Below, in pieces: positions 4,972 to 20,294 of a DNA stretch of 64,000 nt. The stretch covers positions 3,179,501 to 3,243,500 of the forward strand of contig NZ_CP035490.1 in NCBI RefSeq assembly GCF_004135205.1, given 5' to 3'. Under the pieces are notes generated by a model. The model made no database searches, was not told the origin of the DNA, and saw nothing but the letters and a program-made list of their open reading frames with translations. How positions within the stretch are numbered: position 1 is the stretch's first letter; every line of letters starts with the position of its first letter. Source of the DNA: Hahella sp. KA22 (GTDB lineage Bacteria; Pseudomonadota; Gammaproteobacteria; Pseudomonadales; Oleiphilaceae). A program made the translations under genes and the position numbers.

Positions 4972-5059
4972 GCCTGGGTGGCGAAATTGGTAGACGCAAG
5001 GGACTTAAAATCCCTCGGTATTTGATACCGTGCCGGTTCGATTCCGGCCCCAGGCACCA
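4972..5059 (+). tRNA. tRNA-Leu (TAA)
   Basis: An 88-nt class II tRNA with acceptor arms GCCTGGG/CCCAGGC, anticodon loop CTTAAAA (anticodon TAA), a long variable arm and encoded CCA. A broken tyrosine recombinase begins about 170 bp downstream, so the 3' end of this gene is the likely integration site of the accessory segment. I did not find a second copy of its 3' end in the window. Confidence 0.97.
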
Positions 5060-5232
5060 ATCCCTATTTTTACACATAATACTAAATCATCCCAAACCCT
5101 TTAAATTCGCGGCTTTGCGGCGTTTTTCGGTGTTTTCGGAGATTTACTAAATACCCCCCTTACAACCACTTTTTGTCGTAGCACTACGCCAAAATTACGC
5201 CAGATTTACGCCAAGGGAGTACGAGGAAGTTT

Positions 5233-6042
5233 AATGGCAACTTTTCGAAATGGCGCGTTGAGGTCAATGTAAAAGGTCAGCGCGATTCTGCAACTAAAGA
5301 TACAAAGGCCGAGGCTCAGGAATGGGCCGCCAGACGAGAAATTGAACTGCGGTCTCAGTTCGATGGCAGGAGCCTGACTCATATTGTCAGGGATGTTTTT
5401 GAGAGATACGGGCAAGAAGTCAGCCCGTCAAAACGAGGTCAGGACAAGGAGTTGTTGCGGCTTGCCAGTTTCTGCCGCGATCAAATAGCGGATATAAAAC
5501 TGGCGGATCTTAACGCATCCCATATCGCCGACTGGCGAAACCGTAGACTTAAGCAAGTATCATCCAGCTCAGTTAATAGAGAGCTTAACCTGATGTCTCA
5601 CGCGTTTGAAATTGCGCGGAGAGAATGGCGCTGGCTTACTGAGTCACCGACGCGTGATGTCACCCGTCCTAAAAATCCTCCGCCGCGAGACCGGAAAATT
5701 TCTGACGATGAAATAGAACGCGTTTGTCTGTCGCTTGGCTTTGTTGATGGCGTTACGCCTGAAACTAAAAGCCAGCGGGTGGCGATCGCCTTTTTATTTG
5801 CTATCGAGTCGGGAATGCGTGCAGGTGAGATCTGTGGTTTAACCTGGGATGCCGTAAACGGCAACGTTGCTTATCTACCTAAAACCAAAAATGGCACGTC
5901 TAGGAATGTTCCTCTTTCATCGCGTGCGTGTGAGCTGCTTTCTTTTCTCCCTGTTGATGGAGAATCTGACTTTCCATGATACCCGCCACGAGGCAATTAC
6001 TCGCCTCGCTAAAAAGATTGATGTATTAGAGCTTGCGAAAAG
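5233..6042 (+). pseudogene. Tyrosine recombinase (phage-type integrase), degraded
   Basis: Pieces of one integrase lie in different frames. ATG 5233 gives MATFR and then hits a stop. The N-terminal arm-binding region WRVEVNVKGQRDSATK continues in a second frame. The core-binding and first catalytic segments, with the active-site Arg in SGMRAGEICGLTWD, follow to a stop at 5979. The HxxR box HDTRHEAITRLA then appears in another frame with the linking segment missing. The C-terminal Tyr box is absent. At least two frameshifts or deletions and a lost nucleophile make it inactive. Its place just behind tRNA-Leu marks an old tRNA-targeted integration. Confidence 0.85.
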
Positions 6043-6151
6043 GGCGAGAAATAGAAAAAGTGTTAACCCATGCAGGTGCTGAGTCTCTTTATCCTTTGGC
6101 AAAAATAAAAGTAAAATCGGCTTCGCAAAAAATGGAAGTTAAAGGTATATG
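6043..6151 (+). pseudogene. 3' remnant of a cassette gene fused to the integrase ruin
   Basis: After the integrase HxxR segment the expected GH.....Y region is missing. Instead an open frame with a different character (GREIEKVLTHAGAES and so on, about 36 residues) runs to TGA 6151, 17 bp before the first attC-like site. This is the spacing expected for the end of a cassette gene. I read it as the tail of a cassette whose 5' part and attC were deleted together with the integrase C-terminus. The product is unknown. Confidence 0.45.
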
Positions 6152-6168
6152 AAAGCGACTGTATCAAA

Positions 6169-6214
6169 ACCTAACAAGCGGCATCAGTCTGACAGCCAGT
6201 GCCGGGCGTTAACT
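6169..6214 (+). repeat. attC-like site 1 (short)
   Basis: Begins ACCTAAC (R'' box) and ends GTTAACT (R' box, one mismatch to GTTRRRY). Inner arms GGCA and TGCC can pair. At 46 bp it is shorter than most attC sites. It precedes cassette 1. Confidence 0.65.
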
Positions 6215-6219
6215 GTCAT

Positions 6220-6510
6220 ATGAGCTTCAGAGAAAAATTAGAGAAGAAGTGGAAGATTACTATCGCCTTGTTAAGCGAGGCTAGCGTAGTTCTTTGTGAA
6301 TGTCAGGGTGTTGGCAAATATATCGCCGAGTACGATGAATACCTTGATCACAACGAGCTAGAACTAGCTCTGGACATGCTAGAAGAAGCTGCACTTGAGG
6401 CAACGAGTAAGCCACCAAAAGAGATTTGGGTAAAGCTCAAAGAGGCTGCAAAGTCTATGGGCTTAGAGGATCGCTGTGAATTCTACGATCAGCAAATACA
6501 AAACAGTTAA
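6220..6510 (+). CDS. Integron cassette 1: MafI-like immunity protein candidate
   Basis: A 96-residue acidic, all-helical-looking protein. ATG 6220 is used because it lies just after the R' box of attC 1; an upstream start would fall within the attC. The core EYDEYLDHNELELALDML, then a proline break (SKPPKEIW) and KLKEAAKSMGLED, matches by eye the layout of MafI-type immunity proteins of polymorphic-toxin loci. That is a pattern resemblance only. Its stop TAA lies inside the next attC, as is typical for cassettes. No toxin partner is adjacent, so it would be an orphan antidote. Confidence 0.6.
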   Translation: MSFREKLEKKWKITIALLSEASVVLCECQGVGKYIAEYDEYLDHNELELALDMLEEAALEATSKPPKEIWVKLKEAAKSMGLEDRCEFYDQQIQNS

Positions 6511-6582
6511 CAAGGCCAAGCAGCATCGCGCACTACGTGCGCTGGACCTCGCTACGCTCGGCCGCTGTTGGCGGCGTTAATC
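6505..6582 (+). repeat. attC site 2
   Basis: A 78-bp imperfect palindrome with outer boxes AGTTAAC and GTTAATC. Inner arms GCCAAGCAGC and GCCGCTGTTGGC pair with extrahelical bases, and GCGCACTACGTGCGC forms a central hairpin. This is the classical integron recombination-site architecture. Confidence 0.85.
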
Positions 6583-6585
6583 AGT

Positions 6586-6873
6586 ATGCATAGCCAACAG
6601 ATACAAAAATTGATTGATGCTGTAAGGAAAGAGTTTGGAGAAATTCATTACTTTGGATCTTCCAAAGAAGAGAGACACGGAGTTGGATTCGCGATTTCCG
6701 ATGTCAAAGCTACGTTTTCTATCTCTACATTGGGTGGTGATCTAAAGAGCAGTTACGATATTCAAGTAGAAGGTATACCCGCTGGTGAGTATATTTTTAC
6801 TAATGAAGTTTCACTGGGTGAATTTTTGAATCTCGTGAAGATATTTAGAGGTCCTGAGAGTGAGTGGCTATGA
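6586..6873 (+). CDS. Integron cassette 2: hypothetical protein
   Basis: A 95-residue protein starting at ATG 6586, four bases after the R' box of the preceding attC. A TTG-initiated extension would run into the attC. The N-terminal half has a helix (IQKLIDAVRKEFGEI). A beta-rich region follows (ISDVKATFSISTLGG, SYDIQVEG) and then a helical end. I recognise no family. The compact alpha-beta form and company would suit an immunity protein, but nothing specific shows it. Confidence 0.65.
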   Translation: MHSQQIQKLIDAVRKEFGEIHYFGSSKEERHGVGFAISDVKATFSISTLGGDLKSSYDIQVEGIPAGEYIFTNEVSLGEFLNLVKIFRGPESEWL

Positions 6874-6877
6874 ATAC

Positions 6878-6951
6878 ACCTAACAAGTCAAACCAGCAAG
6901 GGCCCTTCGGGCCGGGACGCGCTTACGCGCCACCTGTTCGAGGCGTTAAGT
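6878..6951 (+). repeat. attC site 3
   Basis: 74 bp, outer boxes ACCTAAC and GTTAAGT. It contains the nested hairpins GGCCCTTCGGGCC and GCGCGCTTACGCGC-type arms. It follows the stop of cassette 2 by a few bases. Confidence 0.85.
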
Positions 6952-6969
6952 TAAGTGTCAGGCGTAACG

Positions 6970-7248
6970 ATGAAAATTATTAGACCAAAAACAGAGATCT
7001 TGTGGTTAGGAACAGTGGATGATGGAAAGAAGCTACTTATTAATTCCGAAATCGAAGGGGTTTCCTATGACCTGGTTACTGTTACCGCCGATGATGAGGA
7101 TGAGTCGCTTTGGTTTGAAATTGTAGTGAACGATTACGTGGTGCAGATACCTATGTCAGTTGTACAAAAGGCAATTGAATCTGCATCTGATGAAGTTCAT
7201 TCGGAATCTTGGTATGAGAAAAATGTATACACAACCAACGACACTTAA
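6970..7248 (+). CDS. Integron cassette 3: hypothetical protein
   Basis: A 92-residue acidic protein (many Asp/Glu; TADDEDESLWFEIVV). ATG 6970 is chosen; GTG 6955 is a possible earlier start just after the attC. The predicted pattern is several beta strands followed by a helix (VVQKAIESASDEV) and a WYEKN end. No family is recognised. Its size and acidity resemble small immunity proteins, which is a weak argument. The stop overlaps the next attC. Confidence 0.65.
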   Translation: MKIIRPKTEILWLGTVDDGKKLLINSEIEGVSYDLVTVTADDEDESLWFEIVVNDYVVQIPMSVVQKAIESASDEVHSESWYEKNVYTTNDT

Positions 7249-7299
7249 CAAACGCAAGCAGCCGATTCGCTACGCTCTCGGCTGTTGCTGGCGTTATAG
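7243..7299 (+). repeat. attC site 4
   Basis: 57 bp, outer boxes ACTTAAC and GTTATAG. Arms GCAAGCAGCCGA and TCGGCTGTTGCTGGC pair. This is the lower end of the usual attC length range. Confidence 0.85.
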
Positions 7300-7308
7300 G
7301 TAATCGAA

Positions 7309-7548
7309 TTGGATAAAGAAATCAAAAATTTATTAGGAAAACTGTGCGTAGACTTGGGGTTCTGTTTACCGCCTATAGAGCAAGATCGTATCGCATCTCT
7401 TGGAGTTTGGAGGGCGGACGAATTTGCGAAGGATGTTATTTCTAGTGAAGGGCTTAATCCAGAGTATGAGAAAAAATGGTTGCGAGAAATTCGAAATCGA
7501 TTTGTTGCTCATTTTGGTAGTAACGAGTATGAAAGCAAAAATTCATAA
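7309..7548 (+). CDS. Integron cassette 4: immunity-like small protein
   Basis: A 79-residue helical protein with a TTG start at 7309, ten bases after the attC R' box; no in-frame ATG is available nearby. The features DLGFCLPP, SEGLNP and a basic WLREIRNRFVAHFG end recall a family of short proteins found beside polymorphic toxins, by memory of the pattern and not by search. The stop codon again sits in the following attC. Function unproven. Confidence 0.6.
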   Translation: MDKEIKNLLGKLCVDLGFCLPPIEQDRIASLGVWRADEFAKDVISSEGLNPEYEKKWLREIRNRFVAHFGSNEYESKNS

Positions 7549-7617
7549 CCAGGCGTGGTTGTCGCCTTCGGCTGGGACGGCGCAAAAAGCGCGCAGCCCC
7601 AACACTTGACGTTATAC
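7543..7617 (+). repeat. attC site 5
   Basis: 75 bp, outer boxes TCATAAC (imperfect) and GTTATAC. The interior has GTCGCCTTCGGC and GGCGCAAAAAGCGC hairpins. Confidence 0.75.
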
Positions 7618-7644
7618 CTTTACAGCCGGCTAGCAAAATAATAT

Positions 7645-8379
7645 ATGAGAGAAGATATCTATCTAGTTGATGATCGCCTGAATTTGGTTACTGAGGATGA
7701 AATAGATGCTGCGGAGGATCGGCTTGGTATAAATCTTCCTCAGGGATATAGGAATTTCCTGCTTCAATTTGGAAAAGGGACGCTGTGTGGACTTATTGAT
7801 ATACCCTCTCCTGATAAAATTATTCAGGTTTCGCTGAATTGTCGCTGGGCCAGAGGGCGAAATATTCTGGACGAAGCCGAAATAATTGCGTCTTTCGAGA
7901 TTGCATCAACAATCGATGCTGATTCGATTATATATTGTCCGGGTAGCGAGCGAGATATATATATTTTACCTCGACACGATGACACCATATACTGGATAGA
8001 TAAATGCTTTAGTGACCCCACTATCTGGTATTCAGATGTCGGTGTGGTTCGCGAAAAAGAGCCTTTCAAGTATTTCGAATCCTTGGTGGATCGCTCTTGT
8101 ATAGAAGTCATATTTCCAGATGACCACCTTGCTTCTCAAAAAGTTGTATCTTCAATCAAAGCGACGTTTGAAGAAAGCGGTAGTGTATTGCATCGTGCAT
8201 ACAAAGAATGTCAGTTGATATTTGTGAGAGAACTTTCTGCGATTATTGAGGTTGGTCAAGCTCGTAATTATATCCGTTTTGATTTTAACCCAATGAATGA
8301 AAGTAGAATTTTATCACTGATTTCAAGTTTGGAATCTGAGGGTATGTTCAGTGGCTGTAAATTGATTTTTCACATGTAG
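7645..8379 (+). CDS. Integron cassette 5: SMI1/KNR4 (SUKH) immunity-type protein
   Basis: A 244-residue protein whose N-terminal half has the SUKH-superfamily signature: EIDAAEDRLGINLPQGYRNFLLQFGKG, where a helix, a conserved LP..YR.FL and a G-rich turn are diagnostic. SUKH proteins are immunity factors for many nuclease and other polymorphic toxins. Residues about 60-145 continue as beta-rich SUKH core. The last about 90 residues are an extra domain without a recognised family. It is the largest cassette of the array and lies between attC 5 and the shortened attC 6. No cognate toxin is adjacent. Confidence 0.8.
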   Translation: MREDIYLVDDRLNLVTEDEIDAAEDRLGINLPQGYRNFLLQFGKGTLCGLIDIPSPDKIIQVSLNCRWARGRNILDEAEIIASFEIASTIDADSIIYCPGSERDIYILPRHDDTIYWIDKCFSDPTIWYSDVGVVREKEPFKYFESLVDRSCIEVIFPDDHLASQKVVSSIKATFEESGSVLHRAYKECQLIFVRELSAIIEVGQARNYIRFDFNPMNESRILSLISSLESEGMFSGCKLIFHM

Positions 8380-8385
8380 TCAACG

Positions 8386-8428
8386 GTATAACAAGTTGCA
8401 GCAAGGGCCCCAGTGCAAAGCGTTATGA
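8386..8428 (+). repeat. attC-like site 6 (short, last)
   Basis: 43 bp, outer boxes GTATAAC and GTTATGA with a short TTGCA/TGCAA stem. It looks truncated compared with sites 2-5. An IS3 remnant begins 14 bp further on and may have removed the rest of the array. Confidence 0.55.
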
Positions 8429-8442
8429 GTAATTCAATGAAG

Positions 8443-9315
8443 TGATCCTGCCCAGAAAGATTAGACACGCCATTAAGCGACTTTCGATGCCTCATAACTC
8501 TCTGGACTGAGATAGCCATTTGCGCTATGAAGGTGGGTCCGGTTGTAATCCACTTCGATATACTCAAACATGGCTTCACGCATTTCTTGTCGGGTTGCAT
8601 AATGCTCCCCGTGAATCACTTCCACTTTCCGCTCATGCTGCAGCGAAGCCCATGCGCCTGAATCAACACCTGATAGGCTTCTGAGCAATACTAGGAGCCT
8701 CAATCTGAGTGGACGATCACCTTTTTGGGCTGACGTCGCCGCCACAACGCAATGCGTCGCACACCAGTTCCGACTTCATTCGCGAGCTCATGGTCCAACC
8801 GATAACCTGACGGCTGAACAGGTCCAGCACAACCGCCAGATACAGCCAACCTTCTTCCGTCCATAAATAGGTGATGTCGCCCGACCACTTCTGGTTAATG
8901 TCTGTCGCGTTAAAGTCCTGCTGAAGAAGATTTTCCGCCACGGGCAGACCATGCCTGGAATGAGTAGTGGCTTTAAATTTTCTGACCGCCTTCGCTTGCA
9001 AGCCCTGGCGTTGCATGCTCCTGGCCACCGTTTTACGGTTCGCCTGGATTCCCTATTGCGCAAAGCCTATAGTCAGCCGGGGCGCCCCATTACGCTTTTT
9101 AGCTTTATCAAAGGCGGCTCCAACCTGGATGTCCAGGGATTGCTGGCGCTGTCGTCGCAGAGAAGGGACTTTCTGCCGATAGGGCCAAACATAGTAGCCG
9201 CTTCTTGAAATCTGGAGCCGCTCTCGCCATGCAAGTGATGCGAAAAAGACCTGTGTGAGATTGTATAAAGGCGTACCTCGCTTAACAGGGTGTCTATCAT
9301 TGGTGGGTAGGATCA
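8443..9315 (-). mobile_element. Decayed IS3-family insertion sequence
   Basis: Terminal inverted repeats are visible: TGATCCTGCCCA at 8443-8454, and at the other end the reverse complement TGATCCTACCCACC (9302-9315). The 873-bp length is well below the 1.2-1.5 kb of intact IS3 elements, and orfA is missing from the right end. No clear target duplication is seen. The element abuts the last attC-like site and closes the accessory block on the right. Confidence 0.8.
8473..9315 (-). pseudogene. IS3-family transposase OrfB, frameshifted
   Basis: Three reading-frame pieces make one rve-type integrase. The N-terminal part contains LQISRSGYYVW. The middle has the first catalytic Asp region [28 protein letters not shown]. 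The C-terminal part has MREAMFEYIEVDYNRTHLHSANGYLSPESYE, the typical OrfB end. Frame changes near 9030-9050 and 8720-8745 and a disrupted DDE triad show it is dead. Confidence 0.85.
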
Positions 9316-19952: not shown

Positions 19953-20294
19953 ATGGCTAACCTGATAAGATGTGAGAGTTTAAGTAATCCCGATTTTAAT
20001 GTCCAGATTATAGAGCATGAGGGCAGAACTTGGATCCGTTTGTCTGATTCTGAATTTAAAAAATTCTTTGGGTTTTGGTCTACTCAAAATTTGAATGAGT
20101 ATATTTCTTTGAGTGATGTCGTAAAAGAGATTTCTCGTCGTTTGCAGGGGGTGGATAAGGGATCTAACATAAGCGTTAAAGACGCAATAAGCTACTGGCC
20201 GGATGGCTGGGATTATTGGTCATTAGGTGTCCCAGCCCCCTTGGCTAACTATATTAATTATGAGTTTAAAGATGATCTTGAAAAGTTAATATGA
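19953..20294 (+). CDS. Probable cognate immunity protein
   Basis: 113 residues starting 16 bp after the toxin stop on the same strand. It is acidic and soluble, with a Trp-rich C-terminal third (SYWPDGWDYWSLGVP). Position directly behind a polymorphic-toxin tip is the main argument for immunity function; I recognise no named Imm family. It overlaps the end of the convergent gene by 9 bp. Confidence 0.6.
   Translation: MANLIRCESLSNPDFNVQIIEHEGRTWIRLSDSEFKKFFGFWSTQNLNEYISLSDVVKEISRRLQGVDKGSNISVKDAISYWPDGWDYWSLGVPAPLANYINYEFKDDLEKLI

Follow-up and report, generated by a model that had tools for sequence, protein, structure and literature searches.

A cassette array without integron integrase behind tRNA-Leu in Hahella sp. 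KA22, probably a piece of a degraded and dispersed integron

Background

An integron cassette consists of one small gene and an attC site, and attC, folded as a single strand, is the substrate of the integron integrase (IntI, gene intI). Here we describe an array of such cassettes that lies behind a tRNA-Leu gene of a marine bacterium, Hahella sp. KA22. The window, that is, the whole stretch analysed (64,000 nucleotides), corresponds to C1:3179501-3243500 of the 6.96 Mb chromosome of Hahella sp. KA22, which is a single contig. It was compared with other Hahella genomes, seven including its own (genomes carry labels such as G001 to G005, and L-numbers denote fetched loci).

Clusters of attC sites lacking an integron integrase were termed CALIN by the authors of IntegronFinder (PMC9024848). 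The class comprises groups of at least two attC sites that are separated by small open reading frames (ORFs) and lack an integrase, and a size of six sites is typical; the KA22 array agrees with this description. It differs in that a single complete chromosome devoid of intI holds at least five clusters, and in that a junction, an exchange between species and a relative age can be read from the locus. A second related case is the cryptic Shewanella prophage M16-3, which bears an integron and where a CALIN is likewise found with a broken phage integrase (PMC9892861). However, M16-3 has an intact IntI and attI sites, whereas no IntI was found here, and the recognised phage relic in the window is the integrase gene only. 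A segment of 72 bases of our attC site 2 is 82% identical to a stretch of M16-3 in which no feature is annotated. The integrons of relatives in the same family (e.g., L048, L058 and L064) share the attC architecture and the small ORFs, many of which match no Pfam family, but their intI is open over nearly the whole model, and none occurs in the window. None of the papers listed by a literature search appeared to deal with integrons in Hahella. Our comparisons suggest that the KA22 array is probably one piece of a degraded integron with dispersed parts, and that it was trapped at a tRNA hot spot.

Six attC sites and no integron integrase

The attC sites were analyzed with a covariance model (R2) that contains no window sequence. 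Its source was a set of 50 regions that surround integron integrases or lie upstream of them (48 belong to relatives from other genera), in which a structural attC scan gave 103 matches, compared with one in shuffled sequence. From 56 non-redundant matches, 43 sites of relatives were picked by hand; the 13 dropped were evident false or reversed matches and further look-alikes. R2 encodes the R and L arms, the extrahelical base (bulged, at column 16) and the conserved core TAAC/GTTA. TAAC and GTT are invariant in the relatives' sites, but this is partly imposed, as the scan demanded [CT]AAC and GTT[AG].

In the window, R2 detected six sites on the same strand at 6169-8428, with scores of 23.2-38.4 bits and no further match at E<=10. 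Genuine integron arrays score 16.6-49.5 bits under this model (151 sites at E<=1, some of which had served for training), and sites 2-5, for which an earlier note on this DNA had proposed a covariance check, fall inside that range when scored with R2, our own model (Table 1). The window sites also show the attC secondary structure under R2, with site 6 departing in the L arm. A run with filters off returned three sites only (6169, 7243 and 8386) and a chance match of 10.7 bits at 20162; the other three were probably missed because they are longer than this run allows. A strict motif (TAAC[AC]A, [AG]CGTTA, at least five of six L pairs, fixed spacing) was found in five of the six sites, all on the plus strand, and nowhere else in the 64 kb, while 200 dinucleotide shuffles yielded a single match. 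A guessed DNA pattern had no match across the whole genome.

Thus, the array of six sites and five small same-strand genes proposed in the earlier note was borne out by R2, the strict motif and the shuffles. The ends that it had assigned to the sites were not: RYYYAAC fits three of the six and GTTRRRY one, so the textbook boxes describe these sites loosely. Its remark that several stop codons lie within attC was correct for three of the five cassette ORFs, whose TAA falls in the R'' box (6510, 7248 and 7548). It had also begun the array at 5060, but 5060-6168 is occupied by a relic of a phage-type integrase and, from 6037, by the 3' part of a truncated cassette. A promoter and terminator scan of 5900-8600 performed no better than shuffles; attI and Pc were not searched for.

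No intI above the curated cut-off was detected in the whole chromosome (TIGR02249, best 86.4 bits, cut-off 265), although the identical search exceeded the cut-off in 91 of 146 genomes (KA22 and relatives). At the window locus, then, there is no intI adjoining the array as there would be in a complete integron. Because six attC sites (five by the strict motif) are clustered with five ORFs between them in a complete chromosome without intI above the cut-off, the array is a CALIN, a known class, and is ordinary in kind; both this label and the absence of a nearby integron integrase had been anticipated in the earlier note.

Dispersed clusters and exchange of cassettes

The KA22 genome contains at least five attC clusters with 23 sites in all under R2 (22 in a single scan; Table 1), and at least one cluster was found in each of the seven Hahella genomes. 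These counts are lower bounds, as the genus-wide scan scored 150 of the 1,069-2,637 candidates per genome.

Several of the cassettes recur within the genus. Window 6037-7616 is 98.1% identical to G001 1486556-1488138, and cassettes 2-4 occur together in G005. Cassette 2 is also present singly elsewhere in KA22 (1840.9-1841.3 kb) and in G001 (55.7-56.0 kb), and cassette 4 is found on its own in G001 (1497.9-1498.2 kb) and G002. Beyond site 5, the window, G001 and G005 each carry a different cassette, and the one of G005 sits elsewhere in the G001 array. When the ends of the homology blocks were read from the printed alignments (junction 6037 excluded), 9 of 11 were located within 6 bases of G^TT, the predicted crossover point of the R' box. 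Such ends point to past use of the attC sites by recombination.

We then compared divergence at synonymous sites (dS). Between the window and G001, dS of cassettes 1-3 (pooled) is 0.023 (4 synonymous and 8 nonsynonymous changes) versus 0.269, 0.320 and 0.384 for three flanking genes; the cassettes are thus 12-17 times less diverged. An 18.9-kb part of the window, farther to the right, shares 91% identity with G001. Between the window and G005, dS is 0.048 for cassettes 2-4, compared with 0.174 and 0.262 for two flanking genes and 0.208 for the phage-type integrase relic. The low values of the cassettes relative to both the flanking genes and the relic argue that the cassettes were swapped between species, probably well after the species split, whereas the phage integrase would have diverged with the chromosome. 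The ratio of nonsynonymous to synonymous divergence (dN/dS) of the cassettes, 0.3-0.5 from few changes, hints at weak constraint.

Junction and hot spot at the tRNA-Leu gene

The order of features in the window is tRNA-Gly, tRNA-Cys, tRNA-Leu, a broken phage-type tyrosine recombinase, the attC array and a decayed transposase unit that we take to be IS3-like. The frame of the recombinase is interrupted, in agreement with the earlier note, which had named it as the only recombinase. Homology to the G005 integrase (L089) ends, and homology to the G001 array starts, at 6037, inside a cassette ORF of G001. This switch at 6036/6037 within a cassette indicates a deletion or recombination junction, by which a truncated cassette was fused to the integrase relic. 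As the left end of the array lies inside a cassette, its upstream part, with or without intI, must have been lost.

An intact homologous phage-type integrase, a 392-aa frame in L089, is present at the same tRNA in G005. In G001, the same cassettes are located ~46 kb from tRNA-Leu, behind a different prophage; there, tRNA-Leu is followed by this prophage of another type, copies of insertion sequences, a reverse transcriptase gene and the array. In G002 (L091, the tRNAs and both flanks), R2 found no attC match, and no phage genes were recognised among the ORFs listed. The differing content in G001 and G002 suggests that the interval behind tRNA-Leu is a variable hot spot. A search of the window for a second tRNA-Leu 3' end (25 nt, up to 4 mismatches) found none. 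Thus, of the features expected of an island or prophage, an intact integrase and two copies of the tRNA 3' end, the window has a broken frame and one copy.

The G001 prophage (C1:1440.5-1480 kb, L085-L087) is a tailed-phage prophage at the same tRNA-Leu, and its integrase is oriented opposite to those of the window and G005. Its genes include what we take to be terminase-, portal-, capsid- and tape-measure-like genes. The G001 reverse transcriptase gene (L087:5715-6971), presumably group II intron-like, is ~1.4 kb ahead of the first attC of the array.

Table 1. Features of the window (window positions) and attC clusters of the KA22 chromosome (kb)
Feature	Position	Strand	Remarks
tRNA-Leu(TAA)	4972..5059	+	Probable attachment target of phage-type integrase; integrase region directly behind, here and in G005
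Phage-type tyrosine recombinase remnant	5234..6036 (start approximate)	+	PF00589 42.1 bits; frame interrupted; 3' part lost at 6036
Truncated cassette, 3' part	6037..6168	+	G001 homology starts at 6037 within cassette ORF L087:10382-10672
attC site 1	6169..6214	+	R2 24.7 bits
Cassette 1 ORF, 96 aa	6220..6510	+	Weak MafI-immunity-like match (read from 6217)
attC site 2	6505..6582	+	R2 29.2 bits
Cassette 2 ORF, 95 aa	6586..6873	+	No family; second copy in own genome, C1:1840890-1841256
attC site 3	6878..6951	+	R2 27.7 bits
Cassette 3 ORF, 97 aa	6955..7248	+	No family above cut-off
attC site 4	7243..7299	+	R2 38.4 bits
Cassette 4 ORF, 79 aa	7309..7548	+	No family; copies in G001 (two), G002, G005
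attC site 5	7543..7617	+	R2 23.2 bits; sister-array homology ends at its R' box
Cassette 5 ORF, 244 aa	7645..8379	+	SUKH (SMI1/KNR4) family, immunity-type
attC site 6	8386..8428	+	R2 27.7 bits; short, variable stem nearly absent; fails strict motif
Decayed transposase unit	8434..9315	-	Directly behind array; many copies in sister genomes
attC cluster	1803.7-1806.9 kb		6 sites (R2)
attC cluster	1841.3-1844.3 kb		4 sites, a fifth in another R2 scan (R2)
attC cluster, the window array			6 sites (R2)
attC cluster	4215.3-4216.6 kb		3 sites (R2)
attC cluster	5968.6-5970.6 kb		3 sites (R2)

Integron integrase remnants in the genus

No full-length open intI was found in any of the seven Hahella genomes, four of which are drafts of 130-160 contigs. 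Only G003 exceeds the TIGR02249 cut-off, with a frame that matches positions 37-314/315 and is devoid of the N-terminus. Both G001 and G003 retain intI remnants beside other attC sites. In G001 locus L093, a 74-residue C-terminal remnant of IntI lies past the start of the array and on the other strand, which is the canonical divergent geometry of integrons. L093 is orthologous to the KA22 cluster L094 (two blocks are 95% identical, others 77-87%), in which tblastn detected no IntI remnant.

The two intI copies of G003, on C109 (L059) and C4 (L116), have 70% protein identity over the compared piece and the same N-terminal break point; of 163 family genomes, two contain the exact DNA word at this break, G003 with two occurrences and one other genome with a single occurrence. 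In G005, contig C71 (L060:3761-4285) has a class-1-IntI1-like C-terminal fragment beside a transposase, which we take to be IS26-like, and what is presumably a resolvase. This fragment is either a mobile-element remnant or assembly contamination. A plasmid search gave no match.

A 105-aa IntI-like N-terminal ORF (C1:1131150-1131464), 2.05 Mb off, was considered as a remnant of the lost integrase, since a TIGR02249 match of 71.6 bits in this region (C1:1131141-1131422) resembled a truncated intI. It was rejected, as it apparently represents a separate family. The ORF (L014:9648-9965, minus strand) is homologous to the IntI N-terminal DNA-binding domain, has no catalytic domain, and is present in all seven Hahella genomes, with neighbors partly common to G000, G004 and G003. 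Its dN/dS is 0.027-0.072 for near pairs; for distant pairs it is 0.20-0.30 or, where dS is saturated, could not be computed. Comparable short frames that stand alone (up to 164 aa among those listed) occur in 48 of 61 family genomes, although some may be truncated integrases. This retention, the low dN/dS and the distribution of short frames argue for a family of its own, which looks like a domesticated half-integrase.

Cassette contents

The product of cassette 5 matches PF09346 (38.8 bits, cut-off 25.4). Cassette 1 has a match to NF033691 (MafI immunity; E 4.2e-5, 23.3 bits) that is under the cut-off of 31, a single weak PADLOC match (profile of a type II methyltransferase, E 0.0046), and a predicted structure with a predicted local distance difference test (pLDDT) score of 64. 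Cassettes 2-4 have no family above cut-off. Among 75 Hahella cassette ORFs, SMI1/KNR4 was found in two, Tdi1_C in one and Imm35 in one (among 25 of 42 Pfam families listed), and among 106 control ORFs, Imm33 in one (among 25 of 66 listed). The cassette set was derived from 86 non-leading ORFs, excluding leading ORFs and leaving out 10 near-duplicates and one transposase ORF; the control set was derived from 109. An enrichment of immunity proteins in Hahella cassettes, which would make them an orphan-immunity bank, is unproven and is offered as a lead. No paper joining integron cassettes, immunity proteins and SMI1 was found in a literature search.

Origin of the array

We estimate a probability of about 0.8 that the array is a piece of a degraded integron whose parts are dispersed and that it became trapped at a tRNA hot spot. 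An IntI, either one belonging to the genus or one brought by a visiting element, would once have shuffled its cassettes, and loss of the integrase would then have stranded the array. A deletion or recombination that fused the interior of an upstream cassette to the phage-type integrase gene at tRNA-Leu may have given it its present position. Without IntI, the cassettes are probably frozen now and weakly transcribed, but they could be open to renewed mobilisation by an IntI acting in trans. The earlier note had left two origins open, and stranding from a chromosomal integron is the better supported of the two by the dispersed clusters and the IntI remnant in L093, though not at this exact spot.

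Several observations weigh against this origin. A tblastn search (31 IntI proteins, E<=1e-3) revealed no remnant of IntI next to the five KA22 clusters, so the loss of intI at the window locus itself is something we infer. Two of the 11 block ends are located within attC site 3, almost at one position; these are the 3' termini of the copies of cassette 2 carried by L093 and L094. The dS values of the cassettes are based on few changes (4 and 8 synonymous). In addition, blast revealed a decayed tRNA-Leu 3' end with an integrase leader downstream of the array on G005 contig C105 (L090:4839-5006), which would suit an island-borne origin. This end, seen by blast and in the printed sequence, is absent from the matches of the 4-mismatch scan. 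Such an end could stem from an earlier insertion at this tRNA by an older element of the same type.

The absence of intI remnants at all five clusters would be explained if the array had been seeded in place, with cassettes of another integron of the genus inserted by an IntI acting in trans at secondary sites or attC sites and with no integrase ever present here. Single cassettes at other loci of KA22, G001 and G002, with boundaries mostly at R', fit such a course. However, the array begins on the left with a junction that cuts a cassette, and G001 and G003 do keep intI remnants beside other attC sites; we consider seeding somewhat unlikely.

It is more doubtful still that an island or prophage targeted to tRNA-Leu brought in the array together with the now broken phage-type integrase, the other origin put forward in the earlier note. 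The array does adjoin the integrase relic, G005 has both the intact homolog at the same tRNA and the decayed C105 repeat after its array, and there is a precedent for a CALIN within a cryptic prophage (PMC9892861). But the integrase has a chromosome-like dS of 0.21 against 0.02-0.05 for the cassettes, which argues that the array is younger than the tRNA-Leu element and was probably not carried in with it. Moreover, a different prophage separates tRNA-Leu from the array in G001, the window has no distal tRNA repeat, and the junction cuts both a cassette and the integrase gene. Finally, that the sites are chance palindromes is suggested by the loose fit of the R' and R'' boxes and by the failure of site 6 in the strict motif, but it is refuted by the R2 scores, the spacing, the shuffles and the homology breaks at the crossover point, and we regard it as practically impossible.

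Implications

This locus is a well documented example of cassette arrays outliving their integrase, with dispersed clusters and a readable junction, in which an old chromosome and phage integrase (dS ~0.2-0.4) can be set against young cassettes (0.02-0.05). It is conceivable, though in our opinion improbable, that Hahella arrays are "public" reservoirs and not dead relics, with cassettes still moving between integrase-less arrays and species by means of an integrase in trans (from visiting mobile integrons) or another recombinase. If the cassettes did move after intI was lost, this would be relevant to the question of whether a CALIN is a dead end or a live reservoir.

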